The translations under genes were made by a program, and so were the position numbers. Shown here piece after piece: positions 15,697-63,832 of a DNA stretch of 64,000 bases. The notes below the pieces were generated by a model that saw nothing but the letters and a program-made list of their open reading frames with translations, did no database searches and was not told the DNA's origin. Position 1 is the stretch's first letter. Each line of letters opens with the position of its first letter. Origin of the DNA: Rhodococcus pyridinivorans (GTDB lineage Bacteria; Actinomycetota; Actinomycetes; Mycobacteriales; Mycobacteriaceae); the NCBI RefSeq assembly GCF_900105195.1, contig NZ_FNRX01000002.1, positions 2,108,001 to 2,172,000 on the forward strand, read 5' to 3'.

Positions 15697-15788
15697 CGCT
15701 GAGTCGAAGACTCACGTAGGCGCTGAGTCGAAGACTCACGTAGGCGCTGAGTCGAAGACTCACGTAGGCGCTGAGTCGAGGACTCACG
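15697..15788. repeat. 24-bp tandem hairpin array after secA1
   Basis: Three exact 24-bp units (15697-15720, 15721-15744, 15745-15768) and a fourth partial, one-base-variant unit (15769-15788), beginning 4 nt after the secA1 stop. Each unit contains TGAGTC-GAA-GACTCA, a 6-bp stem with a 3-nt loop. A strong terminator hairpin follows directly (15796-15831). Confidence 0.9.
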
Positions 15789-15795
15789 ATCACCC

Positions 15796-15831
15796 CACGA
15801 CCCTGTGGCTCACCCGAGCCACAGGGTCGTG
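15796..15831. terminator. Bidirectional terminator between secA1 and the convergent gene
   Basis: A perfect 15-bp stem (CACGACCCTGTGGCT / AGCCACAGGGTCGTG) with loop CACCCG. It overlaps the stop codon of the minus-strand gene ending at 15810 and lies 7 nt beyond the secA1 tandem array. Confidence 0.8.
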
Positions 15832-16361
15832 ATCGTCCAGCGGTGCGGAGCACGAGGACGGGGACGCTTGCGCACCATCCGGCCGGCGAAGGCGAACACC
15901 CGGTCCCCGCGACCGTAGCTGCCGAACAGTTCCACGGTGTCGGCGTCGACGGGACGCACCCGCGTCCGCAGCAGTATCGCGGTGCTGCGTCCGGCACGCG
16001 GAGGCCGGCCCGCGGTGATCGTCGCGACGAGACGCGGATCGAGGACCGTGGTGGACTGCACCGCGGGGCGGCGGCCGTCGACGACCTCGAGGACCAGGCG
16101 CACCGCCGTCTCCGCAACCCGCACGACACCCGGATCGAGCACGATCGCGGGTCGGTCGCTCGGCTCTGTGGCCGGGCCTTCGATGCTCGGGCCCTCGGCC
16201 GGACGTCCGGTTCCGCCGCGGCGGAGCGTGGCGCGTCCCGAGCGTCCGTCGTGCGGCGTGGGCCGACGGGCGACGTGGCTGCGGGGACGGTGGCAGCTCT
16301 CCTCCACCGGAGGTTCGAGGCGGGTGAGGCGGCGCACGTAGCGCCCGGTGTGATGCGACAT
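15810..16361 (-). CDS. Rv3235-family protein of unknown function
   Basis: A 183-residue protein with a disordered, Arg- and Pro-rich first 80 residues and a conserved C-terminal domain. That domain includes VRVAETAVRLVLEVVDGRRP, then LDPRLVATITAGRP, then VELFGSYGRGDRVFAFAGRM, and ends RWTITTLWLG. The pattern and position beside secA1 match M. tuberculosis Rv3235. The ATG at 16361 has GGGAGAG just upstream. No enzymatic motif is visible; the C-terminal domain resembles a small adaptor rather than an enzyme. Confidence 0.8.
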   Translation of the reverse strand: MSHHTGRYVRRLTRLEPPVEESCHRPRSHVARRPTPHDGRSGRATLRRGGTGRPAEGPSIEGPATEPSDRPAIVLDPGVVRVAETAVRLVLEVVDGRRPAVQSTTVLDPRLVATITAGRPPRAGRSTAILLRTRVRPVDADTVELFGSYGRGDRVFAFAGRMVRKRPRPRAPHRWTITTLWLG

Positions 16362-16535
16362 GGGCTCTCCCGAAGGGCATGAGAACGGATCGTCACGGTG
16401 ACACCGTGACGGCGGATCGGTTCGGGAGAGGACGAACCGCGCACATGATGCCACATCTCCGGGCGACGGTCCCGGTTCGACGCGCGCGGGATGCGCTGCG
16501 CGAGCAGGACGTCCAGGACCTACGGTGGTGTCGTG

Positions 16536-17024
16536 ATGCGAGGACTCGTACTCGACGTCGGTGGCGTCCTGGTCGGGCCGGGAAGCGACCCCGACACCTT
16601 CGGCGCGGCCGTGACGGTCCTGCGCGCGCGTGGGGTGCGGACCGCCCTGCTGAGCAACGATCCCGGTGGGCCCGGAGCGCAGTGGCTGCGCGATCTCGAG
16701 GGTCCGTTCGTCGACCGCGTGGTGCTCTCGGGTGACGCACGTGTCGCCAAACCCGACCCCGAGAGCTACCTGCTGGTCGCCCGGCTGCTGGACCTCGAAC
16801 CCGGCGAGTGCGTCTTCGTCGACGATTCGGTCGGCAATGTGCGAGGCGCCGCCGCTGCGGGGATGGTCGGCGTACACCATGATGGTTCACACGACGCGCC
16901 GGGCGAACTGGCCGTACTCTTCGATCTCGATCCCGAGGAGATCGGGAGCGGAGCCACGGACGGCGCCGAGTCGTGGTGGCGATGTTCGGGAGGTTCGGGT
17001 CAGGAGGGGGAACGGGGTCGATGA
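16536..17024 (+). CDS. HAD-superfamily hydrolase
   Basis: A 162-residue haloacid dehalogenase-like phosphatase. Motif I is LVLDVGGVLVG, where the usual second Asp is Gly, as in several HAD subfamilies. Motif II is LLSND (about 40), motif III Lys is in AKPDPESY (about 75), and motif IV is VFVDDSVGNVRGA (about 96-108). The cap is minimal. The start could be ATG 16536 or the adjacent GTG 16533. Its stop overlaps the ATG of the acyltransferase gene, so they are coupled. Substrate unknown. Confidence 0.85.
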   Translation: MRGLVLDVGGVLVGPGSDPDTFGAAVTVLRARGVRTALLSNDPGGPGAQWLRDLEGPFVDRVVLSGDARVAKPDPESYLLVARLLDLEPGECVFVDDSVGNVRGAAAAGMVGVHHDGSHDAPGELAVLFDLDPEEIGSGATDGAESWWRCSGGSGQEGERGR

Positions 17025-18430
17025 CGAGCCGGATGACGGCGCAGGACGCGTCGTACTACTACCTGGAGACGAGCAACACGCCGATGCACGTCGGGTCGCT
17101 CGCGATCCTCGAACCCCCCGAGGGCGGTCTCGACTACGAGAGCGTGCTGCGGTTGGTCGAGCAGCGACTGCCCGAGGTGCCCCGTTACCGGAAGAAGGTG
17201 CGTGAGGTCGCATTCGGGCTCTCGCGACCCGTGTGGGTCGACGACCGCGATTTCGACATCACCTACCACGTGCGGCGCTCCGCGCTGCCGAAACCCGGCT
17301 CCGACGAACAGCTGCACGACCTCGTCGCGCGTCTGGTCTCGCGACCGCTCGACCGCACGCGACCGCTCTGGGAGATGTATCTCGTCGAGGGGCTCGCGAA
17401 CGATCGGGTGGCGCTGTTCACGAAGTCGCATTCGGCGCTCGTCGACGGCGAGGAGGCCCTCGACATCGTCCAGGTGCTCTTCGACAAGGAGCCGGTGCCG
17501 CGTGAGGTCCCCGAGGAATTGTGGATGCCCGAACGCGAACCGTCGGAGTCCGCTCTGCTCGTCGGAGCGCTCGCCGAACTCGTCGCGCGCCCGGGGGAGG
17601 GGATCGCCGCCGTGCGATCGGCCGTGGGCGATCTCACGGCGACCCTCACCGAGACCGTCGACGCCGTCGGCCGGATCGCCCGCACGGCAGCGCAGTCGGC
17701 GCCCGAGACTCCGCTGAACACGCAGATCTCGAGGAGCCGTCGGTTCTCCGTGGTGCGCTCCGATCTGGAGCCCTACCGCAAGATCCACTCCCGCTACGGC
17801 TGCACGATCAACGACGTGGTGCTCGCGGTCCTCGCCGGCGCGTTGCGGTACTGGCTGCTCTCCCGTGGGGAGCCGGTCACCGAGGCGACGGTGGTGCGGG
17901 CGATGGTCCCGATGTCGGTGTACACCCAGGATCCGGACGACTGCGGCGACAACGACACGATCCAGGTGCACCCGCAGGGCGAGGTGTCGTCCTTCCTGCT
18001 GGATCTGCCGGTGGGGGAGCCGAACGCGGTGGTCCGGTTGTCGCACATCGCGCATGCGGGCGAGGCCTACTCGCGGCAGCGGCGGCGGGTGGCGGCGCAG
18101 ACGATGGTCCGCTTGTCGGGCTTCGCCCCGGCGACGATGCACGCGGTGGGAGCCCGGGTCGCGATGGGTTTCTCGCAGCGGATGTTCAACCTCATGATCA
18201 CCAATGCGCCCGGTCCGCAGCACCCGCTCTACCTCACCGGATCCCGGCTGCTCGAGATCTTCCCGGTCTCGCCGCTGCTGAAGAATCAGGCCCTGAGCAT
18301 CGCGTTGACGTCCTACGACGGCAAGATCTACTACGGTTTGAATGCGGATCGTGATGCGATGCCCGATGTGGACGTGGCAGCGACGCTGATCCAGGAATCT
18401 CTCGAGGAGTTGACGGATGCCGGCAGGTGA
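17021..18430 (+). CDS. Wax ester/diacylglycerol acyltransferase-like protein (Tgs3-like)
   Basis: A 469-residue member of the WS/DGAT family that makes triacylglycerols or wax esters from acyl-CoA. It matches the Rv3234c (Tgs3) position. Conserved blocks are YYYLETSNTPMHVGSL (about 9-24), PLWEMYLVEGL (about 117), the active-site region TKSHSALVDG (about 132-141), NDVVLAVLAGALRYWL (about 264) and the C-terminal NLMITNAPGPQ. The catalytic HHxxxDG motif reads HSALVDG, so the second His, normally the base, is Ser. It may be inactive or rely on another residue. ATG 17021 overlaps the HAD stop. Confidence 0.85.
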   Translation: MTSRMTAQDASYYYLETSNTPMHVGSLAILEPPEGGLDYESVLRLVEQRLPEVPRYRKKVREVAFGLSRPVWVDDRDFDITYHVRRSALPKPGSDEQLHDLVARLVSRPLDRTRPLWEMYLVEGLANDRVALFTKSHSALVDGEEALDIVQVLFDKEPVPREVPEELWMPEREPSESALLVGALAELVARPGEGIAAVRSAVGDLTATLTETVDAVGRIARTAAQSAPETPLNTQISRSRRFSVVRSDLEPYRKIHSRYGCTINDVVLAVLAGALRYWLLSRGEPVTEATVVRAMVPMSVYTQDPDDCGDNDTIQVHPQGEVSSFLLDLPVGEPNAVVRLSHIAHAGEAYSRQRRRVAAQTMVRLSGFAPATMHAVGARVAMGFSQRMFNLMITNAPGPQHPLYLTGSRLLEIFPVSPLLKNQALSIALTSYDGKIYYGLNADRDAMPDVDVAATLIQESLEELTDAGR

Positions 18431-18433
18431 GAA

Positions 18434-18943
18434 GTGACGCGTGTCTATGTACCGGCAACGCTCGCGATGTTGCAGGGCCTCGTCGCCGACGGTGAGGTCG
18501 ACGCGGTGGGCCGGACGGCCTTCGCGGTGACCCCCGCTCTGCGCGAGGCCTACACGGCGGGCGATGACGAGGAGCTCGCCGAGGTCGCTATGGCCGAGGC
18601 GGCACGCGCGTCGCTGCGGTTGCTCGGGTCCGAGGAGCCGAACGATCATCCGTCCTTCGCGTCGCGTCGGGTGGTGATCGCGGCCGACGTCGACGAGGTG
18701 AAGCCGCGACCGGATCTCGACGATGCGGTCGTCAAGCTCGCCGGGCCGATCACGATGCGTGCGGTTGCGTCGGTGCACATCGACCTGCAGGAGGCGGAGG
18801 CCGACGTCGCGCGGGCACGCGAGATCGTCGATGCCGCCGAACTGGGCGACGAGGAGGCCGAGTTCGTCCTCGGCGACGCGGAGGACCACGAATTGGCGTG
18901 GTACGCGGCACAGGAACTGCCCTTCCTCCTCGAACTGCTCTGA
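18434..18943 (+). CDS. Rv3231c-family protein (DUF6912-like)
   Basis: A 169-residue acidic cytoplasmic protein starting MTRVYVPATLAML and ending HELAWYAAQELPFLLELL. It follows the acyltransferase by 3 nt and precedes the desaturase electron-transfer gene, as Rv3231c does in M. tuberculosis. Family name by recognition; function unknown. GTG start 18434. Its C-terminal HELAWY motif is a recurrent feature of this family. Confidence 0.75.
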   Translation: MTRVYVPATLAMLQGLVADGEVDAVGRTAFAVTPALREAYTAGDDEELAEVAMAEAARASLRLLGSEEPNDHPSFASRRVVIAADVDEVKPRPDLDDAVVKLAGPITMRAVASVHIDLQEAEADVARAREIVDAAELGDEEAEFVLGDAEDHELAWYAAQELPFLLELL

Positions 18944-18988
18944 CCTCGCATATCGCCACGTCATAGGTGTGACGACCGTCTCTTGCTC

Positions 18989-19033
18989 AACCTACGCTTC
19001 CGTAACCTCTGATAACCTACGGAGCCGTAACCG
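18989..19033 (+). promoter_or_regulatory. Tandem operator pair upstream of the desaturase operon
   Basis: Two copies of AACCTACG-N4-CGTAACC, at 18989-19008 and 19014-19033, exactly 25 bp apart. Each has the inverted core TACG-N4-CGTA. A possible -10 (GATAAC, 19011-19016) lies between them, so a bound repressor would block transcription of the reductase-desaturase pair. The same element recurs at 21528. The regulator is not identified. Confidence 0.6.
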
Positions 19034-19053
19034 GAGTGAGGAGAAACGGTCGG

Positions 19054-20184
19054 ATGGGCCTGAAGGAATGGATCGAGAAGCCTGCGGCACACGTCGCGCC
19101 AGGGGAGAAGTCGCTCTCCAACGTCCTGCGTGGCGCGGTGGCCCGGCTGACCACCCCTCTGCTCCCCGACGACTACCTGCATCTGGTCAACCCGCTGTGG
19201 TCCGCCCGTGAACTGCGCGGGCGCATCGTCTCGGTGCGCCAGGAGACCCCCGATTCCGCGACGATCGTCATCCGTCCCGGCTGGGGCTTCGACTTCGGAT
19301 ACGCGCCCGGCCAGTACATCGGCATCGGTCTGCATGTCGACGGTCGCTGGCACTGGCGCTCCTACTCGCTGACCTCGTCGCCCACCTGGGACGACAAGGT
19401 CATCTCCATCGCCGTGAAGGCGATGCCCGAGGGTTTTCTGTCCAGCCACCTCGTCGGTGGGGTTCCCGAGGGCACCGTCGTGCGCCTCGCCGCCCCGAAG
19501 GGCGATTTCGTCCTGCCCGACCCGCCGCCGGCGAAGATCCTCTTCCTCACGGCCGGCAGTGGCATCACGCCGATCATGTCGATGCTGCGGACGCTCGACC
19601 GGCGTGCGGTCGAGCGCGAACTCGACCTGCCCGACGTTGTGCACATCCACTCCGCGCCGACGGCCGAGAACGTGATGTTCCGGTCCGAACTCGAGCGTTT
19701 CGACGCCACCCACGATCGCTTCCGCGTGCACGTGCGTCACACCCGTGAGAAGGGCAAGTTCGCGCTCTCGGAGCTCGACGAGGTGTGCCCCGACTGGCGC
19801 GAGCGTCAGACCTGGGCGTGCGGTCCCCAGCAGATGCTCGACGACATCACCGCGCACTGGGCCGCGGAGGGCATCGAGGATCAGGTCCACCTCGAGCGCT
19901 TCGCCGTCAGCCGCGCCGACACCTCTGGCTCGGGCGGAACGATCACGTTCGCGAAGTCCGGCAAGACCGTCACTGTGGACGGCGCCACGACGATTCTCGA
20001 GGCCGGTGAGAGCGTCGGTGCGCTGATGCCTTTCGGTTGCCGCATGGGAATCTGTCAGACTTGTGTTGTGCCGCTCGAGAAGGGGCACGTCGTCGATCTG
20101 CGATCCGGCAAGGAGCACGCAGAAGGCGAACGCGTCCAGACCTGCATCTCCGCCGCTGCCGGCGACTGCACACTGGACGTGTAG
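19054..20184 (+). CDS. Ferredoxin reductase for acyl-CoA desaturase (Rv3230c-like)
   Basis: A 376-residue flavin reductase fused to a plant-type ferredoxin, the established NADPH-dependent partner of DesA3 (Rv3230c) in mycobacteria. FAD-binding motif RSYSLTSSP (about 108) is followed by the NAD(P) region [19 protein letters not shown] (about 165-183) and WACGPQQML. The C-terminal 2Fe-2S site is CRMGICQTC with a fourth Cys in [15 protein letters not shown] 19054 follows GAGGAG. The desaturase gene begins 31 nt later. Confidence 0.92.
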
Positions 20185-20215
20185 ACACCGACAGCAAACC
20201 TCCGAAGGATCCCGC

Positions 20216-21529: not shown

Positions 21530-21557
21530 CCTACGGGACCGTAACCTACGGTAGAGT
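21528..21557 (+). promoter_or_regulatory. Operator and -10 of the second desaturase gene
   Basis: A third copy of AACCTACG-N4-CGTAACCT at 21528-21547 overlaps the stop of the first desaturase. TAGAGT (21552-21557) is a good actinobacterial -10, 7 nt before the ATG at 21565. No Shine-Dalgarno is visible, so the transcript is probably leaderless. Confidence 0.6.
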
Positions 21558-21564
21558 AGCCCGC

Positions 21565-22800: not shown

Positions 22801-22815
22801 CGGTCACGAGAACGA

Positions 22816-22853
22816 GCACGAACCCCGGCACCTACAGGTGCCGGGGTTCGTGC
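22816..22853. terminator. Strong bidirectional terminator
   Basis: A perfect 18-bp stem (left arm 22816-22833, right arm 22836-22853, GC-rich core CCCCGGCACC) with only 2 nt unpaired. It sits between the convergent second desaturase and rsgA. Confidence 0.88.
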
Positions 22854-22874
22854 GTTCGGCCGGGGTTCGTCGGT

Positions 22875-23864
22875 TCACCAGGGGTCGTTGGACGCGAGCG
22901 CCGTGAGCAGTTCGCGCACGGCCATCGCCCGGTTGTGCGACTTGCCCTCCAACGAGTCGAAGGCACATTCGGGATCGGCGGGCGGGCCGAGATGCGTGCA
23001 CCCGCGCGGGCAGTCCTCGACCGCTTCGGCCAGGTCCCCGAACGCCGCGACGACGTCGTCGGGCCCGATGTGCGCGAGCCCGAACGACCGGATGCCCGGG
23101 GTGTCGACCACCCACCCGCCCTCGGGCAGATGCAGGGCCACCGACTGGGTGGAGGTGTGACGTCCCTTGCCCACCCCGGAGACCTCGCCGGTGGCGCGGT
23201 CGGCGTCGGGGACGAGCCTGTTCACCAGTGTCGACTTGCCGACCCCCGAGTGCCCGATCAGGGCGGTCACGCGACCGTCGATCCGCTCGTGCAGGGCGGT
23301 GAGATCGTCGTCCTGACCGACGAGCAGCACCGGGATGTCGAGATCCGCGAAGTGCGCGGCGAACTCGTCGGGATCGGCGAGGTCGCTCTTGGTCAGTCCC
23401 AGCAGGGGAGCGAGACCGCCGGCATAGGCCGCGACGAGTGCGCGTTCGACGAGTCCGGTCCGTGGTGGGGGATCGGCGAGCGCGACCACGATGAGCAGCT
23501 GTTCGGCATTGGCGACGACGATGCGCTCGAACGGATCGGTGTCGTCGGCCGTGCGCCGCAGGACGGTGCTGCGGTCCTCGACCCGCACGATGCGCGCGAG
23601 CGTGTCGGGGCGACCGGAGAGATCGCCGACGACACCCACCTGATCGCCCACCACGATCGGGGTCCGGCCGAGCTCGCGTGCCCGCATCGTCGTCACGATC
23701 CGGTCGGGATCACCGCCGAGCGCGACACCCCACCGCCCGCGGTCGACGGAGACGACCATGCCCTCCTCGGCATTGCGGTGGGCCGGGCGGTCCTTCGTGC
23801 GCGGCCGCGAGCCGCGCCCGGGGCGGACCCGGACGTCGGACTCGTCGTACTCCCGCCGCCTCAG
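22875..23864 (-). CDS. rsgA: Ribosome small-subunit-dependent GTPase RsgA
   Basis: Late 30S assembly GTPase, 329 residues from the preferred start. The N-terminal OB fold (about 25-105) is followed by a circularly permuted GTPase: LTKSDLA (G4), then GHSGVGKST (G1), then DTPGIRSF (G3). A zinc knuckle ([16 protein letters not shown]) lies near the C-terminus. The likely start is CTG 23864, placed 6 nt after GGGGAG and overlapping the aroA stop as CTGA; it yields the conserved [20 protein letters not shown]. In-frame GTG 23894 inside aroA is the conventional alternative. Confidence 0.93.
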
Positions 23865-25147: not shown

Positions 25148-25227
25148 CCGGACCGGTGCGGGCACCCTCGCCCACCCGGTGCGCGCCGGTGTCGGTTCCG
25201 TCACCCGGCGATGCCACACTCGACGGC

Positions 25228-25986: not shown

Positions 25987-26008
25987 GCGCTGCCGGAGCG
26001 GACGGGCC

Positions 26009-26506: not shown

Positions 26507-26533
26507 CCGATCACTCTAGAGAACCGGAGGTGG

Positions 26534-26559
26534 GGAACAAGCGCGGTGGGCACGGCGTT
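26534..26559 (+). promoter_or_regulatory. SigH-type promoter upstream of sigH
   Basis: GGAAC (26534-26538), an 18-nt spacer and GTT (26557-26559) match the SigH/SigR consensus GGAAY-N18-GTT. Sigma factors of this group activate their own genes, so this is a likely autoregulatory promoter. Confidence 0.65.
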
Positions 26560-26718
26560 GCACACCGACGGGTGGATCCACCGGCCACCCGAGACCCGAC
26601 GATCGGAGAATTCGTGGCAGTGCTGTGCCCGCCTCGACCGGACGCCATCGGACGTCCCCCCGATCCGGACGCCGTCGGACCGGTAGCCTTCTCGACAGGC
26701 GTCGATGAAGGGATCGGT

Positions 26719-27357: not shown

Positions 27358-27635
27358 GCGAACCCGACTTCGATCGACTCGACTGCTCGGCGGTCATCGC
27401 GGACGTCTACCTGCTTCTCGACTCCGAATGCGACGCCGGTTCCCGCGAGAAGCTGCAGCGGCACCTCGACGAGTGCGGCACCTGCCTCGAGGCCTACGGG
27501 ATCGAGGAGAAGATCAAATCGCTGCTCAGCCGCAAGTGCGGCGGGGAACACGCACCCGAGGGCCTGCGGGAGCGGCTCATGCTGCAGATCCGCCGCACCG
27601 TGGTGATCACCGAGACGGACAGCGCCGAGTCGTAG
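27354..27635 (+). CDS. rshA: Zinc-containing anti-sigma factor RshA
   Basis: A 93-residue redox-sensing anti-SigH factor. The ZAS signature H37-x3-C41-x2-C44 (HLDECGTC) binds zinc and releases SigH when its thiols oxidise. Other cysteines are C11, C26 and C62. The GTG start overlaps the sigH stop. The last codons (GAG TCG TAG) fall inside the first unit of a tandem repeat, so copy-number change could touch the C-terminus. Confidence 0.95.
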
Positions 27636-27690
27636 GCGGGTTCACTCGTACCGAGTCGTAGGCGAGTTCACTCGTACCGAGTCCTGGGTG
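27625..27690. repeat. 26-bp tandem repeat across the rshA stop codon
   Basis: Two 26-bp units (27625-27650 and 27651-27676, one difference) plus a diverged third start (27677-27690). Each junction contains ACTCG-TAC-CGAGT, a 5-bp stem with a 3-nt loop. The first unit includes the rshA stop codon, and the next unit repeats the same TAG. A terminator follows at 27705. Confidence 0.85.
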
Positions 27691-27704
27691 AGACCCCCGA
27701 ACGT

Positions 27705-27742
27705 GACAGGGGCCGGAAAGCTGCTGCTTTCCGGCCCCTGTC
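27705..27742. terminator. Bidirectional terminator between rshA and bL37
   Basis: A perfect 16-bp stem (GACAGGGGCCGGAAAG / CTTTCCGGCCCCTGTC) with loop CTGCTG, 6 nt from the bL37 stop codon. Confidence 0.88.
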
Positions 27743-27748
27743 CGCGTC

Positions 27749-28134: not shown

Positions 28135-28168
28135 CGGCGGGTATCTCCTGAGTACGAAAGCGGTTCCC

Positions 28169-33030: not shown

Positions 33031-33082
33031 TCAGCACCGACCGGGACGGCTCGCTTTCAGCACCGACCGGGACGGCTCGCCA
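33031..33082. repeat. 26-bp tandem duplication between convergent genes
   Basis: Two 26-bp units (33031-33056, 33057-33082), identical except for the last two bases. Each starts TCAGC, the same five bases that begin the real minus-strand stop region at 33083. The array fills the whole gap between ParA and the convergent gene. Confidence 0.85.
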
Positions 33083-34288
33083 TCAGCGCAGTGCCACGAG
33101 CTCATCGCCGCGTTGCTCGACCACGACATTCCCCGCGACGGCGACGTTCACCGTGGAGACCGTCCCGCGCTCGACGTCGATGCGCGGGCCGGGTTCACCG
33201 GTCCGTGAGTCGACTCCCACGAGGGCGTCCTCGACGGGAAGGAGCAGCGAACCGGCCATGATGTCGCCGTTGCCGAGAGTGTCCTCGACGGTCCACTGCG
33301 GGGCGAAATCGGTGGTGGACAATGCGACGGTGTCGCGGCCCGTCCACCACACGAGCACGCCGCCGCGCTCGAGGGCGGAGTCGTCCGATTCGCCGGCAGG
33401 ACGCGGCAGGGCGTGCGTGTCGAGGAGGACGCCCTCGCTGTCGAAGACCTCGATGCGCGGCCCGTCGTTGTCGTCCGGGGCCAGGTAGACCGCCGTGCGG
33501 TCGCCGACCACCGCGACGATGCGGGAGTCCCCGCCCGCTTCCGGCAGCACCGACGACGCGAACTCCTCGGGCTTGGTGCTGTCGTCGGGGGTGGGATCGA
33601 GAAGGGTGAGCCGATTGGTCGGCTCGTTCGCGCACTGCTCGAGCACGGCCAGCACTTCGGCGCCCGAATCCGCCGAGCGCAGTTCGCAACCCGATCGTGG
33701 CTGCGCGTTCGGGTTCACCGGTGCGTCGACGCGCCCGTACTCGACCGTGCGCACCAGATCGGAGCGCCACATCTCGAGACGTGACTCGCCGAAGGCGATC
33801 AGGTGCGAACCGGCGCCGACGACCCGGATCGGATCGTCGGCGTCGCTCGACCGTTGCGCGCCCCGAGAGCCACTGCCCGAGTCGAGCGCGGTGACCTGAC
33901 CGCATCCCCGCGGGCCGCGATAGACCGAGACCACGTCGCCCCAGGCCTCGGTGACCGCGCACAACGCCCGGTCGCGGTCGTACCGCCAGCGTTCCTCGCC
34001 GGATTGCGGGTCGCGGCCGACGACCGCACCACCGTCTGCCGTGGCGACCGTGCCGCCGGACACCACCGGTGCGGTCGTCGCCGTACTCGGAGCACGCCAC
34101 AGTTCGGCGAGCGTGCGCGGAAGAGATTGCGCGGCAGCGAGAGTGGGGACAGGACCGTCCCAGGTGGTCGACGTGGTGCCCCGCGCATCCGAGTTCAGCC
34201 AGACGACACTCGCCGCCACCAGAGCGGTGACGACGAGTGCGGCTGCGACGAGAAGGTCGGTGCGGGTGCGGCGCTCGGGCGCGAGCAC
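33083..34288 (-). CDS. Membrane-anchored beta-propeller protein (Rv3212-like)
   Basis: A 401-residue protein. After a short basic N-terminus a single signal-anchor helix (LLVAAALVVTALVAASVVWL, about 14-33) exposes a large extracytoplasmic domain with PQQ-like repeats (SGGTVATADGGAVVGRDPQSGEERW-type). It includes paired Cys (DRALCAVTE, RGCGQV; SGCELR, EQCANEP) that may form disulfides. No enzymatic residues are recognised. GTG 34288 lies 4 nt past the rhlE stop, giving an operon with rhlE. Same order as Rv3212-Rv3211. Confidence 0.82.
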   Translation of the reverse strand: MLAPERRTRTDLLVAAALVVTALVAASVVWLNSDARGTTSTTWDGPVPTLAAAQSLPRTLAELWRAPSTATTAPVVSGGTVATADGGAVVGRDPQSGEERWRYDRDRALCAVTEAWGDVVSVYRGPRGCGQVTALDSGSGSRGAQRSSDADDPIRVVGAGSHLIAFGESRLEMWRSDLVRTVEYGRVDAPVNPNAQPRSGCELRSADSGAEVLAVLEQCANEPTNRLTLLDPTPDDSTKPEEFASSVLPEAGGDSRIVAVVGDRTAVYLAPDDNDGPRIEVFDSEGVLLDTHALPRPAGESDDSALERGGVLVWWTGRDTVALSTTDFAPQWTVEDTLGNGDIMAGSLLLPVEDALVGVDSRTGEPGPRIDVERGTVSTVNVAVAGNVVVEQRGDELVALR

Positions 34289-37201: not shown

Positions 37202-37218
37202 CGTCGTTCTCGGTATGT

Positions 37219-37923
<705 letters not shown>

Positions 37924-39158: not shown

Positions 39159-39170
39159 GCGCCGGTCGGG

Positions 39171-39217
39171 GTCGACGGGCCGGGCGGAGTCGACGGGCGA
39201 GGTGGCGGTCGACGGGC
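39171..39217. repeat. Degenerate approx. 19-bp repeat after DUF3152 gene
   Basis: The 10-mer GTCGACGGGC occurs at 39171-39180, 39189-39198 and 39208-39217 with GC-rich spacers of 8-9 nt. Each copy contains the palindrome GTCGAC. It starts 13 nt after the stop. Confidence 0.6.
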
Positions 39218-39286
39218 GGAATGGGGGTCGCAGCAGGGAATGGCACCATGGACGGTGACGCAGGACGCATCGCGACAGGAGAACCC

Positions 39287-49656: not shown

Positions 49657-49701
49657 GTCTTCATGCTGCCTCATCCGCCGCGCTCGTGATCGTCTGTACT
49701 C

Positions 49702-49853
49702 GCCGTGTCCGGCACCGATCGCACTGCCGTGTCCGGCACCGATCGCACTGCCGTGTCCGGCACCGATCGCACTGCCGTGTCCGGCACCGATCGCACTGCC
49801 GTGTCCGGCACCGATCGCACTGCCGTGTCCGGCACCGATCGCACTGCCGTGTC
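49702..49853. repeat. 24-bp tandem array, six exact copies, in a divergent intergenic region
   Basis: Six identical 24-bp units (49702-49845) and a partial seventh (49846-49853). Each has the inverted GCCG-TGTC-CGGC and the palindrome CGATCG. The period is a multiple of three and lacks stops, so several frames stay open across it, but none has gene-like composition. The array lies between the divergent MobA-MoeA and DUF6412-like genes. Confidence 0.93.
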
Positions 49854-49871
49854 GCGGATAGACTGCCGGGT

Positions 49872-50285
49872 ATGTTCTTCGGCTGGCGGAACGGCGCGGC
49901 GGTGTTCGTCGTCCTCATGTCCTGGCTCGTCTCCGCGGTCGTTCCGGTCACCGCGGTCTCCACCGGCGACACCGCCGGATTGCTCCTCGGCCTGCTGGTG
50001 GTGGTCGTCGCAGCACTCACGTTCGTCGCCGCCGCGGAGGATCCGCTGTTCGCCTTCGGTCGCAGCATCCGGGGCCCGACCTCCGAGGAACGACGTCTGC
50101 GCGGCGGGTTCCGCCGCCACTCCCACCCCGACACCGCCGGACGGCCACGTCCGCGCTCACCCGGTTCCGTCCTCGCCCTCGACACTCCGTCCGACGAGGA
50201 ACACCGGGAGATTCTCCATGTTCGATCCCTATCCGCACGGCACACCCGCTGTGTCCGTCCGCAACGCCCACCGCTCGTTCGGTGA
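49872..50285 (+). CDS. Small membrane protein, DUF6412-like
   Basis: A 137-residue protein with two hydrophobic segments (about 8-27 and 35-53) and a basic tail containing HSHPDTAGRPRPRSPG, a signature I associate with DUF6412 proteins. The last about 22 residues overlap the ABC ATPase coding start, so the functional protein may end earlier. ATG 49872 has only a weak ribosome-binding site. Function unknown; the adjacent ABC genes suggest it works with them. Confidence 0.6.
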   Translation: MFFGWRNGAAVFVVLMSWLVSAVVPVTAVSTGDTAGLLLGLLVVVVAALTFVAAAEDPLFAFGRSIRGPTSEERRLRGGFRRHSHPDTAGRPRPRSPGSVLALDTPSDEEHREILHVRSLSARHTRCVRPQRPPLVR

Positions 50286-50871
50286 CCTGACCGTCTTCAC
50301 CGGGGTGAACGTCGACGTCGCCCCCGGCCGATGTTGCGCCGTGATCGGCGCGAACGGCACCGGCAAGTCCACCCTGCTCGGATGCGTCGTCGGCGTCGAC
50401 CGACTCGACGAGGGCGTTGTCGAGATCCACGGCGTCCCCGTCGACGAGAGCTCGCCGACGCTGCGACGGCAGGTCGCCGCAGTCCTCGGCGACGTGGCGA
50501 CATTCGCGCATCTCACCGCGCACGAACACCTGCAACTCGTCGCCACCGGTCACGGCGTGACCGACCCGTTCGACGCGGCGACACAGGTCCTCGAGGAGGT
50601 CGGTCTCGCCGCGTCGGCCGATCGACTGCCGCTGACCTTCTCGAGCGGGCAACGCCGCCGGCTCGCGCTGGCCTCCGCGCTGGTACGGCCCCGGCGGTTG
50701 CTCGTCCTCGACGAACCCGAACAGCATCTCGACGACGCCGGTCGCCGGTGGCTGGCGTCCACCCTGGAAGCCGAGAAGCGCGCGGGCGGCACCGTGCTGA
50801 TGGTCTCGCACGATGTCGCGCTGGTGGACGCGGTCGCCGACCAGGTGGTGGAGGCGGACCGATGGAGCTGA
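50218..50871 (+). CDS. ABC transporter ATP-binding subunit
   Basis: A 217-residue ABC ATPase. Walker A is GANGTGKST (about 40-48), the signature is FSSGQRRRLALASAL (LSGGQ variant SSGQ, about 141-155), and Walker B is RLLVLDEPEQHLD (about 160-172), then SHDVALVDAVADQVVE. ATG 50218 lies inside the end of the upstream reading frame. The permease gene overlaps its 3' end by 10 nt. Confidence 0.88.
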   Translation: MFDPYPHGTPAVSVRNAHRSFGDLTVFTGVNVDVAPGRCCAVIGANGTGKSTLLGCVVGVDRLDEGVVEIHGVPVDESSPTLRRQVAAVLGDVATFAHLTAHEHLQLVATGHGVTDPFDAATQVLEEVGLAASADRLPLTFSSGQRRRLALASALVRPRRLLVLDEPEQHLDDAGRRWLASTLEAEKRAGGTVLMVSHDVALVDAVADQVVEADRWS

Positions 50872-52226
50872 CCGGAACCGTCCCCAGCGCGCGCGACCTC
50901 CGCGCGCTCCGTCACGCCTTCGAGCGCCGGCGCGCGCCGCTGGTGGATCGTCCGGCCCTCGCTGTGCTGGTCGTCCTCGGCTTGTATGTCGGCGGGGGAC
51001 TGGCGTGGTGGTTGTTCTCCCTTCCGGCGACGACCTTCGCGTGCGGGGACCCGATCGTGCGCGATTCGGGGTGCACCTCGGCGTGGGGATGGGCCGTCGT
51101 CGCGATCGCGGTCGCTGCGGGGACGGCGTCCACCCGGGCCGCAGGTCCGGTGACGTGCGGTACCGAGACGGAGTTCTGGCTGCTGTCCACACCGGTGGAT
51201 CGCGGTGCGGCACTCCACCCGAGAGTCGCGGCGCTCCTGATCTGCGGTGCAATCGCGGGTGCTCTCGCGGGACGGTTCGCGACGTTCGTGACCACCCCGG
51301 AGGGGCGCGTCGCGTTCACATGTCTCGCTGCCGCTCTCGGTGTCGGTGCCGTCGCCCTTCCGATGCTCGTGCAGTGCCGGGTACTCGTGCCCGCGGTCGT
51401 GCGGGTCGTGGTCGGGCTGTGCCTCGTCGCCGTTCCGGGCGTGGTGACGGTCGCCGCCGTCGGCGTCGCGGTGCCACCGCCGGGACCGTTGTTCGTGGTG
51501 GGGGCGTGGATCGCCGTTGCGGCACCGGCGGTCTCGGCGTTGCGTCGATGCGACAGGATCGCTGCACCGGAGTGGAGGGTGGGATCGGACACCGCGGTCG
51601 GTGTGTCGGCGTCGTTCACGGCACTCGATCCTTCGCTGCTGACAGGCGTGGTCGAACGGAAGGCCTGGTTGCGCATCGGATCCCGCCGCTCGCGGGCCCT
51701 GCCGCGCCGCCGGATCGCGGCACTCGTCCGTTCCGATCTGCTCCGCCATGTCCGTAGGCCCACACCCGTGCTCGTCGCGTGCGTGGCGCTGCTCGGCGTC
51801 GTGGTGCTGATGTCGGTCGTATCGCCGCCCGCCGCTGTCGTGGTGCAGCTCGTCGCCGTCTTCACCGTGGCGACGATCTTCGGTGCGGGTCTGCGCGACG
51901 TGAGCCGCGATCCCGATTTCGCCGTCCTGCTCGGTACGAGCGACACGTATCTGCGTCGCGCACTCTCGGCGGTCCCGGGGTCGGCCGCGGTCGTCGCCGG
52001 TGCCGTGACGGGATTCGCCGGGAGTGCGTCGGTGGCGAGCGTCGTGATCGTCATCGTCGGTGGGTGCGCGGCCGCCTATCGGATGCGCACGCGACCTCCG
52101 ATCGGGTACGACGGTCTGATCCTCGAGACGGCCGTCGGGCAGATTCCGGTCGATCTGCTCCGGCAGTGGGCACGGGGACCGGACCTACTCGTCGTCTGCG
52201 CGTGGCTCGCCGCCGTGCTCGCCTGA
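50862..52226 (+). CDS. Polytopic membrane protein, DUF6297-like permease
   Basis: A 454-residue protein with about ten hydrophobic segments and no classical EAA loop. The cytoplasmic linker near residues 245-300 is Arg-rich (KAWLRIGSRRSRALPRRRIA). It is the likely membrane partner of the preceding ATPase; family name by recognition, not certain. The ATG lies within the ATPase gene (10-nt overlap), giving tight coupling. Substrate unknown. Its 3' end overlaps the convergent alkyltransferase-like gene by 42 nt. Confidence 0.75.
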   Translation: MELTGTVPSARDLRALRHAFERRRAPLVDRPALAVLVVLGLYVGGGLAWWLFSLPATTFACGDPIVRDSGCTSAWGWAVVAIAVAAGTASTRAAGPVTCGTETEFWLLSTPVDRGAALHPRVAALLICGAIAGALAGRFATFVTTPEGRVAFTCLAAALGVGAVALPMLVQCRVLVPAVVRVVVGLCLVAVPGVVTVAAVGVAVPPPGPLFVVGAWIAVAAPAVSALRRCDRIAAPEWRVGSDTAVGVSASFTALDPSLLTGVVERKAWLRIGSRRSRALPRRRIAALVRSDLLRHVRRPTPVLVACVALLGVVVLMSVVSPPAAVVVQLVAVFTVATIFGAGLRDVSRDPDFAVLLGTSDTYLRRALSAVPGSAAVVAGAVTGFAGSASVASVVIVIVGGCAAAYRMRTRPPIGYDGLILETAVGQIPVDLLRQWARGPDLLVVCAWLAAVLA

Positions 52227-52526: not shown

Positions 52527-52529
52527 CGG

Positions 52530-53315: not shown

Positions 53316-53388
53316 GCCGACCACTATCCCAGTCGTGACTCCGCGGTGTGCCCCGGACGCTGTCGTACCCGTCTGGTGGGATGGGGTC

Positions 53389-60149: not shown

Positions 60150-60156
60150 CGCAACC

Positions 60157-61222
60157 TCAGGGGCGCTGCCCGATACCGGTGGCCACTTCGTGTGCCCGGC
60201 GTCCGGCGGTATCGGGTGCAAGGGGAGCGGTGGGCATCCCGGCTCCCTCCCGCAGTCCCGACAGGAATTCCTCGAGGATCTCGGGCGGCGAATACTGCGG
60301 TTCCCAGCCCAGTTCTGTGCGGGCGCGCGTGCTGTCGAGCAATGGAAGTTGCAGCACGGTGTCGAGCAGGCCGGGGGAGGCCGGAACGAGATGTGCGTGC
60401 CAGGCCGCCCGCACGGCCTTGCGGAGTGCTGCACGCGGTACGGGGATCTTCCTGGCGGAGAACATCTCTGCCAGGAACGCGCCGTCCACGGGCGGTTCCG
60501 TGGCGAGGTTGAACGCGCCGCGGACGGGCCGGACGGTCGCACGGACGAAGGCGTCGGCCACGTCGCTCGTGTGCAGTACCTGGGCACGCAGATCCTCGAC
60601 CAGCGGCATCACGGGGAGCAGTCCGCTGCGCAGCAGGTTTCCCGGGAGCAGGGGGCCGACGAACAGGCGTCGCTGTGAGGTCGCCGATTCGCGCTTGAAG
60701 AGGAAGTAGGGCCGCATCCGTACGATGCGCATCTCCGGCGCCCGCAGTTCGAGGGTGTCGAGAAAACGTTCCAGGTACGACTTCTCGCGGGGATAGGCGG
60801 CACCCGGCCACCCATGTTGTGGGCCAGTCCTCGGTGACGCGATCCGTCGAGCGTCCGGGCGAATAGGCCGCGACGGACGACGAGTAGATCAGCGCGGGAA
60901 CCTTCTCCGCGGCAGCCGCCTCGAAGACAGAGATCGCGCCGAGCACATTGTTCTCCCAGGTCACCTCCGGGCGGTGCGTGGGTTGGAACAGCCAGGGCAG
61001 GTGGATCACCGCGTCCGCGCCCCGCACGATGGGGCGGAAGTCGTCGGTGGTGGTGTCGGCGACCGTGAAGGTCGCCTTGGGGGACGTCCATTCCGTCGGT
61101 CGTCGCGCGACGCCGGCGATCTCGGCGACGTCGGGTTCGCGTCCGAGCGCCTCGACGATCCCGGTTCCCAGATTTCCGGTCGCGCCGACGACGACCACCT
61201 TCAGACCACGTGCGGTGTCCAT
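60157..61222 (-). pseudogene. NAD-dependent epimerase/dehydratase with a single-base frameshift
   Basis: An SDR/extended-type gene of about 355 codons interrupted by one extra base. The N-terminal part (from ATG 61222) has the dinucleotide motif VVVGATGNLGTGIVEAL and IYSSSVAAYSPG, with frame lost near 60814-60820 after EDWPT. The expected HGWPGAAYPREKSYLERF continues in the next frame to a stop at 60157, with the MRIVRMRPYFLFKRE segment intact. It may be a recent pseudogene or an assembly error. Neighbours are adnB (7 nt away, convergent) and a DoxX-like gene. Confidence 0.8.
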
Positions 61223-61271
61223 ACCGACGCATACCCGCTCGCTGTGACCTCACTCACCGCGTGTGGTCAGC

Positions 61272-61661
61272 TCAGCGGGAGGATGTGCGGCGGACCTTCA
61301 GTGCCTCGGTGACGAGCGGGACCTGCAGCGGGAGCCGGGCGAGCGACACCGCCTTGGCGGCGGGGGAGAGCTTCGGGCTGCGCAGCCACGTCACGGCCAT
61401 CTGCACGTTGGCGGGGAAGACCGCCAGGAACAGCGCCGCGGCCAGGGAACCGCCGAGGCGCCGGGTGCGGGGCACGGCGAGCGCGCCGGCGACGGCGATC
61501 TCCGCGACCCCCGAGGCGTAGGTGTAGGTGCGGGCATCACCCGGCAGGGCGCGGGGCACCATGCCGTCGAACGGTTCCGGTCGCACGAAATGCAGGACCC
61601 CCACGCCGAGAAGTAGACCTGCCAGCCGGATCGCAGAGCGCTGCGACGCTTTCGTGGACAT
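61272..61661 (-). CDS. DoxX-like small membrane protein
   Basis: A 129-residue membrane protein with about four hydrophobic segments (LAGLLLGVGVLHFV at 14-27, TYTYASGVAEIAVAGALAV, LGGSLAAALFLAVFPANVQM, and a weaker last one), typical of the DoxX/MauE-like fold. HFVRPEPFD and NVQMAVTWLRSPKL are the family-like loops. ATG 61661. It is 49 nt from the SDR gene in the same direction, so possibly co-transcribed. Redox role inferred only. Confidence 0.75.
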   Translation of the reverse strand: MSTKASQRSAIRLAGLLLGVGVLHFVRPEPFDGMVPRALPGDARTYTYASGVAEIAVAGALAVPRTRRLGGSLAAALFLAVFPANVQMAVTWLRSPKLSPAAKAVSLARLPLQVPLVTEALKVRRTSSR

Positions 61662-61782
61662 GCGTGCCACACTAGCGCGCGGCGGTACGCTGCGATCCGG
61701 TATCGGGCGCAGTTCGTTCGGTACCGCGACGACCGAGGGTGGCCACCAGTGGAGGCCGACAGCAGGAAGGTGGGACACCGCG

Positions 61783-62871
61783 ATGCCCGGGAGGTTGCGT
61801 GCGCGGTTCAGCCGCTCCGATCAGCTCACCGAGCGCCCCGACTTCGCGCTCGTCGGTGTGCTGCGCGTACCCCAGGAACAGACGAGTCCCGGACTCGCGA
61901 TCGCGCGTCGCATCGGCTACGCGTTCGCGGCGCTGTTCCTCGCGGTCGTCGTGGTCTACCTCGATCGCGATGGCTACCGCGACGCCCAGGGCGACGAACT
62001 GTCGCTGCTGGACTGCGTCTACTACGCCACGGTCTCGCTCTCGACCACCGGCTACGGCGACATCACCCCGTTCACACCCGAAGCGCGCCTGATCAACATC
62101 TTGCTGATCACCCCGCTCCGGGTGTTCTTCCTCATCGTGCTCGTCGGTACCACTCTGTCGGCACTGACCGAGAGTTCCCGGCAAGCATTCAAGATCCAGC
62201 GTTGGAGGCGCCGCGTGCGTAATCACACCGTCGTCATCGGTTACGGCACCAAGGGCCGTACCGCAGTCGACGCGATGCTCGGCGACGGGGTACCCCCGTC
62301 CGAGATCGTCGTGGTCGACACCGATCCGGTGGTTCTCGAGTCCGCGGCCGGCCAGGGCCTCGTGACGGTCCAGGGTTCGGCGACGAAGTCCGATGTGCTC
62401 CGGCTCGCCGGGGTGCAGCACGCGTCGGCGGTGATCGTCGCCGCGAACCGCGACGACACCGCGGTGCTCGTGACCCTCAGCGCCCGCGAGATCGCCCCGC
62501 GCGCGAAGATCGTCGCCGCCATCCGCGAGTCGGAGAACACCCACCTGCTGCGTCAGTCCGGTGCCGACTCGGTGGTCATCTCGTCGGAGACGGCGGGGCG
62601 ACTGCTCGGCATCGCCACGACCACGCCGAACGTTGTCGAGATGATCGAGGACCTGCTCACCCCGGAAGCCGGGTTCGCCATCACCGAACGCGATGTCGAC
62701 CCCAGCGAGGTCGGGGGATCCCCGCGGCATCTCAAGGACATCGTGCTCGCCGTCGTCCGCGACGGGCGGATGTGGCGGATCGGTTCGCCCGAGGTCGACG
62801 CGCTCGAAGCGAACGACAAACTGCTCTACATCCGGCTGGTGGGTTCGTCGCCGGGCGCCATGCGTGGCTAG
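61783..62871 (+). CDS. Potassium channel with TrkA-N domain (Rv3200c-like)
   Basis: A 362-residue two-helix channel. The pore helix/filter is STTGYGDITPF (filter TTGYGD, about 88-93), between transmembrane segments near 44-62 and 108-130. The cytoplasmic RCK/TrkA-N domain follows with VVIGYGTKGRTAVDAML (about 150-166) and ADSVVISSETAGRLLG. A TrkA-C domain ends it. Probably gated by NAD(H) or similar ligands. It precedes nudC by 9 nt, an order conserved with Rv3200c-Rv3199c. Confidence 0.92.
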   Translation: MPGRLRARFSRSDQLTERPDFALVGVLRVPQEQTSPGLAIARRIGYAFAALFLAVVVVYLDRDGYRDAQGDELSLLDCVYYATVSLSTTGYGDITPFTPEARLINILLITPLRVFFLIVLVGTTLSALTESSRQAFKIQRWRRRVRNHTVVIGYGTKGRTAVDAMLGDGVPPSEIVVVDTDPVVLESAAGQGLVTVQGSATKSDVLRLAGVQHASAVIVAANRDDTAVLVTLSAREIAPRAKIVAAIRESENTHLLRQSGADSVVISSETAGRLLGIATTTPNVVEMIEDLLTPEAGFAITERDVDPSEVGGSPRHLKDIVLAVVRDGRMWRIGSPEVDALEANDKLLYIRLVGSSPGAMRG

Positions 62872-62880
62872 GGTGCTGAT

Positions 62881-63780
62881 GTGACCGGTTTCGCTTTGTC
62901 GGGTACCCCGCTGCTCTCACGTACCGTCGTCGACCGGGCGGAGGAACTGCGTTCGGACGAGGACGCCCTGCGCGCCGGCTGGGCCGGTGCGAAACTCCTG
63001 CGGGTCGATCGTCGCAACCAGGTCCGTGTCTCCGACAACGCGCTCGTGCTCGGTGAGGCGTCCGAGCTCGGTCCCGAACCGGTCGAGGGCGCGATCTTCC
63101 TGGGTATCCGCGACGGACACCACGTCTGGGCGTCTCGCGTCCTGGCGCAGACGGGCACGGTGGCCGATCTGCGGCGCATCGGCGAGCGTCTCGACGATGC
63201 CGACGCCGATCTGATGGTCAGCGCGGTCGCGTTGCTGAACTGGCACGACAACGCCGGCTACAGCGCGGTCGACGGCTCGCCCACCCGTCCGACGATGTCC
63301 GGCTGGTCGCGGATCAGCACCGAGACCGGACACCAGGAGTTCCCTCGCACCGACCCGGCGATCATCTGCCTCGTACACGACGGACACGACCGGGTGCTGC
63401 TCGCCCGGCAACCGGTGTGGCCCGAGCGGCGATTCTCCGTTCTCGCAGGCTTCGTCGAAGCCGGTGAGTCGCTCGAATCGTGCGTGGTGCGGGAGATCCG
63501 TGAAGAGGTCGGTGTCGAGGTGCGCGACGTGCGGTATCTCGGCAGTCAGCCCTGGCCGTTCCCTCGATCGCTCATGCTCGGATTCGCGGCGATCGCCGAT
63601 CCCGAGCAGGCGCTGGACTTCCGCGACGGGGAGATCACCGAGGCGCGGTGGTTCACTCGTGACGAGGTCCGCGCGGCGCTGGCGACTGGCGACTGGGCGT
63701 CCGCCGAGGACGCCCCGCTGTTGTTGCCCGGTTCGATCTCCATAGCGCGCGGGATGCTCGAGGGCTGGGCCAAGGAGTAG
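62881..63780 (+). CDS. nudC: NADH pyrophosphatase NudC
   Basis: Hydrolyses NADH and removes NAD caps from RNA. The 299-residue protein has a Nudix box GFVEAGESLESCVVREIREE (about 193-212) and the NudC signature SQPWPFPRSLM (about 222-232). The middle domain (about 118-145) lacks the four zinc-binding cysteines of E. coli NudC (NWHDNAGYSAVDG, then PTMSGWSRI), as in the M. tuberculosis enzyme. GTG 62881. A three-copy 15-bp repeat begins 8 nt after the stop. Confidence 0.95.
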   Translation: MTGFALSGTPLLSRTVVDRAEELRSDEDALRAGWAGAKLLRVDRRNQVRVSDNALVLGEASELGPEPVEGAIFLGIRDGHHVWASRVLAQTGTVADLRRIGERLDDADADLMVSAVALLNWHDNAGYSAVDGSPTRPTMSGWSRISTETGHQEFPRTDPAIICLVHDGHDRVLLARQPVWPERRFSVLAGFVEAGESLESCVVREIREEVGVEVRDVRYLGSQPWPFPRSLMLGFAAIADPEQALDFRDGEITEARWFTRDEVRAALATGDWASAEDAPLLLPGSISIARGMLEGWAKE

Positions 63781-63787
63781 CAGTCCG

Positions 63788-63832
63788 TGCGGTAGAGGGC
63801 ACTGCGGTAGAGGGCACTGCGGTAGAGGGCAC
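63788..63832. repeat. 15-bp tandem repeat after nudC
   Basis: Three exact copies of TGCGGTAGAGGGCAC (63788-63802, 63803-63817, 63818-63832). With the preceding G, the first copy has inverted ends GTGC/GCAC. It lies between nudC and the shared terminator. Confidence 0.9.

Follow-up and report, generated by a model that had tools for sequence, protein, structure and literature searches.

REP/BIME-type repeats are conserved palindromes that occur in many dispersed copies. The MIRUs of mycobacteria are, in the excerpted text of PMC2734929, units of 40-100 bp that M. tuberculosis H37Rv carries at 41 sites. Tandem repeats of Bacillus keep a constant period (20-21 or 52 nt) with variable sequence (Subirana and Messeguer 2021, PMC8161180), and the words 'stop' and 'intergenic' have no occurrence in the main text of that paper. 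In a survey of prokaryote satellites, S. coelicolor, Amycolatopsis and two mycobacteria are among the species with more than 20 satellites (PMC6749651, in excerpt); its main text uses neither 'stop codon' nor 'convergent', and the excerpts leave gene ends untreated. A rule tying tandem repeats to stop codons or gene ends is undescribed among the matches listed in the open-licence literature, at the level of titles and the starts of abstracts.

The window, that is the whole stretch of 64,000 nucleotides of Rhodococcus analysed here, was originally predicted to carry seven tandem arrays, six of them at stop codons. All seven were found at approximately the predicted positions, six by TRF and the pair at 37216 by eye. 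Six of the seven loci span a stop codon or start 2-7 nt past one, the exception at 49702 lying between divergent gene starts. The three short hairpins quoted for these loci (TGAGTC-GAA-GACTCA, ACTCG-TAC-CGAGT, GTCGTC-AGC-GACGAC) are present by eye. An additional window locus, absent from the original list, lies at 22840. The arrays and the hairpins near them are:

15696..15788, array of a 24-bp unit in 3.9 copies (TRF), 2 nt past the secA stop (ends 15693; SecA by Pfam), in a convergent gap ahead of a minus-strand gene
15796..15831, hairpin with a 16-bp stem, a likely terminator, beyond the secA array and separate from it
22840..22876, array of a 19-bp unit in 1.9 copies (TRF), located between convergent genes and extending to the minus-strand gene's stop; its left edge falls within a hairpin at 22819-22850
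27625..27683, array of a 26-bp unit in 2.3 copies (TRF), in a convergent gap, spanning the stop (27633-27635) of a zf-HC2 anti-sigma-like gene (Pfam), with the stop codon in the first copy
27705..27742, hairpin with a 17-bp stem, after the anti-sigma gene array and separate from it
33031..33087, array of a 26-bp unit in 2.2 copies (TRF), with the stop of a ParA-like gene (33026) on one side and the stop of the convergent gene (33083-33085) inside the array
37216..37261, two copies with period 26 (by eye), spanning the stop (37249-37251) of a minus-strand gene
39161..39230, array of 18-19-bp units (TRF 39161-39217, 18 bp in 3.1 copies), in a codirectional gap, 2 nt past the stop of a DUF3152 gene (39158)
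49702..49853, array of a 24-bp unit in 6.3 identical copies (TRF, 100% matches), between divergent starts (49656 on the minus strand, ATG 49872 on the plus strand) and not at a gene end
63788..63832, array of a 15-bp unit in 3.0 copies (TRF), in a convergent gap, 7 nt past the stop of a NUDIX gene (63780)

The pair at 37216..37261 is absent from the TRF rows of the window and hence falls outside the TRF-based counts of 35 used below. No Rfam match above the gathering score was found in the window.

Placement was assessed in a 1.264-Mb sample of this Rhodococcus chromosome, intergenic arrays being counted at a TRF score of at least 60. A stop lies within 20 nt of 27/35 intergenic arrays, against 8.9 expected from random intergenic placement (p=2e-10); 20 of the 35 in this sample span the stop codon, and only 2/35 have a start within 20 nt. 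Placement relative to stops is thus non-random, and the predicted recurrence of local duplication at the 3' ends of genes is supported. When the 118 kb of intergenic DNA was resampled five times under a first-order Markov model, 0 arrays reached a score of at least 60, against the 35 observed. Array density per kb of intergenic DNA is 0.97 in convergent, 0.23 in codirectional and 0.11 in divergent gaps, so the predicted link with convergent genes holds as an enrichment at convergent pairs. False stops or collapsed repeats, produced in gene calling or assembly, are scarcely credible as the source. Gene calls came from a script of ours that, on a 50-kb stretch of E. coli, overlooked 3/43 annotated stops and made 9 unlisted calls; however, the outcome is the same with confident genes only, when the count is repeated at higher gene-score cut-offs (27/35 at a score of at least 25, 25/40 at a score of at least 50), and arrays or length variation occur at the same gene ends in separate relative genomes. 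It is confirmed that tandem arrays at gene stops are real and that the pattern reaches beyond the window.

In close relatives (G005 and G008, about 96% identical) copy number differs at the same gene ends, and more distant relatives carry unrelated arrays there. The secA array (3.9 copies here) has a 25-bp unit in 4.7 copies in G005 and 2.7 in G008, both of which keep the unit's own hairpin; the separate hairpin beyond it has, in all but its last few bases, closely similar sequence in G005, G008, G013, G015 and G007. The anti-sigma gene array (2.3 copies here) has a 27-bp unit in 5.6 copies in G005 and 3.6 in G008; no such array was seen by eye at this gene in G013 or R. gordoniae, and the hairpin at 27705..27742 is shared by G005, G008 and R. 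gordoniae. At the ParA-like gene end there is no array in G005 or G008, a different 27-bp array of 4.6 copies in R. gordoniae L063 and a different 24-bp array of 2.8 copies in G015. The 37216 locus has 2.7 copies in G005 (TRF) and a single copy in G008 (by eye). At the DUF3152 gene end the array is shorter in G005, where it escapes TRF calling, and has a 19-bp unit in 2.0 copies in G008; R. gordoniae carries a different array there, 29 bp in 2.0 copies. An unrelated 14-bp array of 2.1 copies spans the same NUDIX gene stop in G005. The 49702 array is absent in G013 and G015, and its flanks were unmatched in the other four relatives tried. The arrays thus show two features of a VNTR, namely head-to-tail units of about 10-60 bp and a copy number that varies between closely related genomes.

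The arrays are probably VNTR-type minisatellites: tandem duplication primed by microhomology would recur, and selection would filter its products. Local duplications of about 13-35 bp would be primed by short flanking direct repeats, through slipped mispairing or template switching, and the duplicates would be kept where harmless. Where the duplicated unit holds the stop codon, the protein would stay the same, since translation would still end in the first copy, and the extra copies would become 3' untranslated DNA. The space between stop and terminator, above all between convergent genes, would contain no promoter or ribosome-binding site, so that duplications could persist there, vary in copy number and decay. 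Within genes mostly in-frame units would survive, and upstream of genes duplications would largely be removed. Arrays in coding sequence are in frame in 60/64 cases at a score of at least 60 and in 20/20 at a score of at least 80. In the arrays that contain a whole stop, the first copy holds it in 16/16, a figure that arises partly by construction and has a naive expectation of 12.1.

Among two-copy exact intergenic duplications of the Rhodococcus set, 19/28 overrun the junction by at least 3 nt, where about 7% would be expected by hand calculation from the match rate. Ten of these 19 overruns are no longer than 10 nt; the longer ones (9/28) may represent the remains of a third copy and not microhomology. 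Overruns of at least 3 nt occur in 3/8 duplications in G039 and G072 together and in 15/26 in Mycobacteriales loci, and they are equally common in coding duplications of the Rhodococcus set (14/23). NHEJ fill-in was considered as the maker of the duplications; the frequent overrun favours a microhomology-primed step instead, though not decisively. We infer that the molecular step is slippage, that the arrays have no function and that bacteria of this class duplicate at a higher rate.

Indels of at least 6 bp occur at 7.1 (G005) and 4.3 (G008) per kb in the 20 nt after stops and at 0.7 (G005) and 0.2 (G008) per kb in the 20 nt before starts. Further past stops the rate is 2.2 and 0 per kb at 60-79 nt, then, with few bases, 6.5 and 2.7 at 80-99 nt and 2.4 and 4.8 at 120-139 nt. 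Length varies at 54/261 and 41/265 stop sides and at 16/284 and 12/289 start sides. Scored against dinucleotide shuffles, the longer allele contains a tandem repeat at 33% and 49% of variable stop sides versus 3% and 2% of those without length variation. At the few start sides that vary, tandem repeats are as frequent (25% of 16, 50% of 12), thus tandem duplication is commoner at stops and not special there. A stricter test for clean tandem insertions, applied to indels 0-39 nt past stops, scored 4/48 (G005) and 5/30 (G008) as tandem, near the chance level (4-5% in G005), probably because of how gaps were placed in degenerate arrays; the fraction of stop-zone indels that is tandem is uncertain. 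Divergence is 0.100 and 0.095 at fourfold sites, 0.078-0.138 in convergent gaps shorter than 80 nt and 0.022-0.045 in codirectional gaps. Short convergent gaps thus evolve at about the neutral rate, and their roughly 0.05-0.2 long indels per substitution looks high.

Where RNA polymerase pauses, terminates or collides between convergent genes, replication forks might stall, such that duplications arise more often at gene ends in the first place. The fourfold array density of convergent over codirectional gaps, the peak of the near-gene indel rate in the 20 nt past stops, and the recurrence of independent arrays at a given gene end from one species to another would all fit such a hotspot. It is nevertheless doubtful as the main cause: with substitution in short convergent gaps near neutral, relaxed constraint alone predicts more indels, and their rate falls unevenly with distance from the stop, rising again at 80-99 nt, where bases are few. 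In codirectional gaps the stop preference (11/15 versus 8.0 under a neutral-duplication model) is a slight excess of marginal significance (p=0.045), and may reflect a modest extra duplication hotspot at stops there.

The arrays had been thought to be duplicated 3'-end hairpins with a possible part in termination. The 35 TRF units fold no better than mononucleotide shuffles (mean z -0.11), z falls below -2 in 3/35 units versus 6% of 172 control pieces, and the secA unit, with its real hairpin, reaches -1.64. A whole perfect stem of at least 9 bp, a threshold under which short stems like the three quoted hairpins fall, lies inside 0/27 stop-side arrays; long hairpins occur near 5/27, outside the array. 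These z-scores and the stem search lead us to reject hairpin duplication as the origin, and the same two results give no support to a role in termination. Arrays acting as 3'-end elements that tune termination, mRNA decay or convergent read-through are unlikely for the same want of a common fold and stem, and also since arrays are gained and lost between species at the same genes. In favour of such elements, the arrays adjoin stops and occupy convergent gaps, three window loci have short hairpins, that of the secA unit being kept in both close relatives, and the length of one mycobacterial VNTR correlates with downstream gene expression (PMC2734929, in excerpt).

Periods of the 35 intergenic arrays range from 13 to 55 bp, 34 lying at 13-34 bp and one at 55. 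The suggested clustering at 24-26 bp stands as a broad mode (11/35) and fails as a sharp cluster. None of the 35 units has a copy elsewhere in the 1.264-Mb sample (E<=1e-3), and whole-genome searches with the 15696 and 49702 loci matched those loci alone. Different loci thus carry unrelated units, as predicted, and the arrays do not recur as identical dispersed repeats in the sample. A MIRU- or REP-like family inserted at gene ends is very improbable against these results, although tandem units of 56-58 bp do lie near gene ends at some mycobacterial loci.

The supposed lineage trait extends beyond Rhodococcus. The stop-side pattern is seen in two further genomes of the same class, and 450 kb of Proteobacteria (150 kb of E. 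coli, 300 kb of S. meliloti pSymB) contain no stop-side array and, in 9,886 bp of convergent DNA, no array, in a comparison set that is small and in which pSymB is a plasmid with genes called by our script. Among 80 named Mycobacteriales loci (L063-L142), which all represent one homologous region and so are no random sample, the share of arrays with a stop within 20 nt is 10/12 in Rhodococcus s.l., 12/22 in Mycobacterium s.l., 5/10 in Gordonia and 4/5 in others; a start lies within 10 nt of three arrays in mycobacteria and of one among the others. A selective filter alone leaves array-free E. coli and pSymB unexplained, thus a difference in mutational supply would be needed. As a tentative conjecture, high-GC Actinomycetes could have an unusually high rate of microhomology-primed duplication of 15-30 bp, possibly raised by convergent transcription, and the bases after stops could serve as a genome-wide minisatellite nursery, in which 3' untranslated regions turn over more quickly than by substitution. 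The genome analysed here has no MutS_V match and has NucS_C, and it can be asked whether short DNA stretches are duplicated more frequently in Actinomycetes than in bacteria whose repair is of the MutS type.

VNTR-type minisatellites are themselves known; the new parts are the stop-codon rule and, possibly, a clade-wide duplication bias. Survival of duplications whose first copy carries the stop is a simple placement rule, and it could account for many VNTRs in intergenic DNA, as well as for the poor alignability of post-stop DNA between close relatives here. The arrays are also candidates for markers in Rhodococcus typing, and they form a natural archive of short tandem duplications.

Among described systems, REP/BIME-type repeats differ from these arrays, whose units have no dispersed similarity in the 1.264-Mb sample. 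Intrinsic terminators share the neighbourhood 3' of stop codons, but the arrays are not series of terminators, with a mean z of -0.11 over 35 units in place of a stable hairpin per unit, and with long hairpins outside the arrays, apart from the one straddling the edge at 22840. The constant-period repeats of Bacillus (PMC8161180) are, like these loci, unrelated in sequence, species-specific and in many cases non-coding, and they are conserved only partly between strains; unlike them, the 35 arrays have periods spread over 13 to 55 nt around a broad mode, and not one fixed length per species. MIRUs form a homologous family, with units of 40-100 bp in the excerpted description; units here are mostly shorter (34/35 at 13-34 bp), unrelated between loci (0/35 recurring) and often hold the stop codon in the first copy. 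A close likeness is to mycobacterial VNTRs (MIRU-VNTR, ETR), which belong to the same order and are likewise short intergenic tandem units whose copy number differs between close relatives.

The host genome comprises 5.26 Mb in three contigs, and the window (C2:2108001-2172000), with a GC content of 69%, contains no tRNA gene and no Rfam match. Its ParA-like protein is 98% identical to that of Rhodococcus gordoniae, the closest named locus. All seven tandem arrays of the original prediction are found in the window, next to genes encoding, by Pfam, SecA, zf-HC2 (anti-sigma-like), ParA-like ATPase, DUF3152, MoeA/MobA-type and NUDIX proteins. An eighth array, absent from the predicted list, lies in a convergent gap at 22840-22876 (19 bp x1.9), and a hairpin at 22819-22850 overlaps its left edge.

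Placement was assessed in three contiguous chromosome blocks of 464 kb (window included), 400 kb and 400 kb, with genes called by script and intergenic arrays by TRF (score >=60, period 10-60). In one 50-kb E. coli stretch the gene caller recovered 40 of the 43 annotated stops, with nine further calls outside the comparison list. The predicted gathering of arrays at gene ends is real: 27 of 35 lie within 20 nt of a stop codon versus 8.9 expected when same-length arrays are put at random into intergenic DNA (p=2e-10; 8.8 in another run), and 20 span the stop itself. None lies within 10 nt of a start codon and two lie within 20 nt. At stricter scores the stop-proximal share is 20/25 (>=80) and 18/20 (>=100), and five Markov resamplings of intergenic DNA yielded no array scoring >=60. 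The period is a multiple of three in 60 of 64 arrays within CDSs at score >=60 (20 of 20 at >=80) and in 17 of 35 intergenic ones.

By gap type, the sample holds 16 arrays in a total of 16.5 kb of convergent, 15 in 64.2 kb of codirectional and 4 in 37.8 kb of divergent gaps. Under a tolerance model, with duplications spread evenly over all sites at which they disturb neither the protein nor the start of the following gene, 8.0 of the 15 codirectional arrays should lie near a stop, versus 11 seen (p=0.045). Tolerance of duplications thus accounts for much of the stop preference, leaving only a slight excess in codirectional gaps. Where a whole stop lies inside an array it is in the first copy in 16/16 cases (naive expectation 12.1), as expected if protein-altering duplications are removed, and partly by construction, a gene ending at its first in-frame stop.

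The arrays had also been read as duplicated 3'-end hairpins acting in termination, and this was not borne out. Units fold no better than mononucleotide shuffles (mean z -0.11; 3/35 below -2, controls 6% of 172; secA unit -1.64), and a whole perfect stem of at least 9 bp lies inside none of the 27 stop-side arrays, a test that omits the edge-straddling hairpin at 22840. Such a hairpin lies outside the array in five, and 22 have one neither inside nor outside. The arrays are therefore not the long-hairpin terminators; the long hairpins of secA and of the anti-sigma gene lie outside the array and are conserved among relatives.

Junctions of two-copy exact duplications carry overruns of at least 3 nt in 19/28 cases in the Rhodococcus set (10/19 when restricted to overruns <=10), 14/23 Rhodococcus coding duplications, 3/8 in two further genomes of the class (G039 and G072) and 15/26 in Mycobacteriales loci, the expected share being about 7% by hand calculation from the match rate. 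Such frequent overruns suggest that short direct repeats prime the duplication; the long ones may represent third copies that have decayed.

Two close relatives, G005 and G008, are ~96% identical to the genome under study and mostly collinear across the 480 kb compared. Among alignment blocks over 1.5 kb, those of G005 stop at arrays 27625, 39161, 49702 and 63788, and those of G008 at 33031, 49702 and 63788. Copy numbers (this genome, G005, G008) are 3.9, 4.7 and 2.7 at secA and 2.3, 5.6 and 3.6 at the anti-sigma gene. More distant relatives carry different units at the same gene ends. At the 33031 site the array is 26 bp x2.2 here, 27 bp x4.6 in R. gordoniae and 24 bp x2.8 in G015; neither G005 nor G008 has one. 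At 63788 it is 15 bp x3.0, and G005 has an unrelated 14 bp x2.1 array spanning the stop. By eye, no counterpart of array 27625 follows the coding end in R. gordoniae, G013, G015 or G007. From these sequences, arrays seem to have arisen repeatedly and independently at shared gene ends. The stop-proximal share (within 20 nt) is 12/18 in G005 (4.7 expected), 14/19 in G008 (5.6) and 5/6 in pooled stretches of G013, G007 and G015 (1.8), many of the arrays being orthologous. Where this genome has a 27-bp convergent gap (G000:C2:2251840-2251866), the corresponding two genes of G005 and G008 stand well over 100 bases apart, suggestive of a decayed gene remnant.

The 20 nt immediately past stops carry 7.1 (G005) and 4.3 (G008) indels of at least 6 bp per kb, versus 0.7 and 0.2 in the last 20 nt ahead of starts; away from stops the rate drops unevenly (60-79 nt, 2.2/0; 80-99 nt, 6.5/2.7). 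Length varies at 54/261 and 41/265 stop sides and at 16/284 and 12/289 start sides. The longer allele holds a tandem repeat in 33% and 49% of variable stop sides (non-variable, 3% and 2%; shuffles <=0.6%) and in 25% and 50% of the few variable start sides. A stricter per-indel test (0-39 nt past stops) finds 4/48 and 5/30 tandem (chance 4-5%); many of the stop-side variable regions listed are degenerate, which leaves the tandem share uncertain. Fourfold sites diverge by 0.100 and 0.095; divergence is about neutral (0.078-0.138) in convergent gaps <80 nt, 0.034-0.069 in longer convergent gaps, 0.022-0.045 in codirectional gaps and, five very short gaps excepted, 0.034-0.058 in divergent gaps. 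With short convergent gaps near neutrality, long indels broadly follow relaxed constraint.

The sole 5'-end array among those reported comprises six identical 24-bp copies (49702-49853) between divergent genes, directly upstream of a start (ATG 49872), and is a possible expression-tuning VNTR. It is absent in G013 and G015, the G013 alignment resuming at 49853, immediately past it. A segment beginning at its edge (49696-52210), containing most of two called genes, falls in none of the blocks aligned with G005 and G008, in both of which the flanking sequences are directly joined.

Elsewhere in the class, G039 and G072 (200 kb each) have 9/15 and 9/15 arrays within 20 nt of stops (3.1 and 3.3 expected). 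Named Mycobacteriales loci agree in part: 10/12 in Rhodococcus s.l., 12/22 in Mycobacterium s.l., 5/10 in Gordonia and 4/5 in others. E. coli gave no array in 150 kb, and the two arrays found in 300 kb of S. meliloti pSymB each lie between divergent genes. In the whole genome under study MutS_V has no match and NucS_C has one. From these small samples, it is plausible that lineages differ in their supply of short duplications, which raises the question of whether Actinomycetes make them unusually often. Mycobacterial loci also contain tandem units in the MIRU length range, some of them close to gene ends:

L104:3132-3368, 56-58-bp tandem units
L115:19051-19378, 56-58-bp tandem units
L124:14507-14630, 56-58-bp tandem units
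L132:6995-7175, 56-58-bp tandem units
L138:12906-13033, 56-58-bp tandem units

The best account is recurrent tandem duplication, which would be primed by microhomology and retained where protein and promoters stay untouched. The loci are VNTR-type minisatellites. Identity with MIRU was rejected, the arrays differing in unit length and lacking dispersal in the sampled DNA, and they are not of the Bacillus constant-period type as outlined in PMC8161180. In M. tuberculosis the length of one VNTR is linked, in the account of PMC2734929, to expression of the downstream gene; single loci may accordingly have a function, and in this genome the divergent 49702 array, located shortly before a start, would be the leading candidate.
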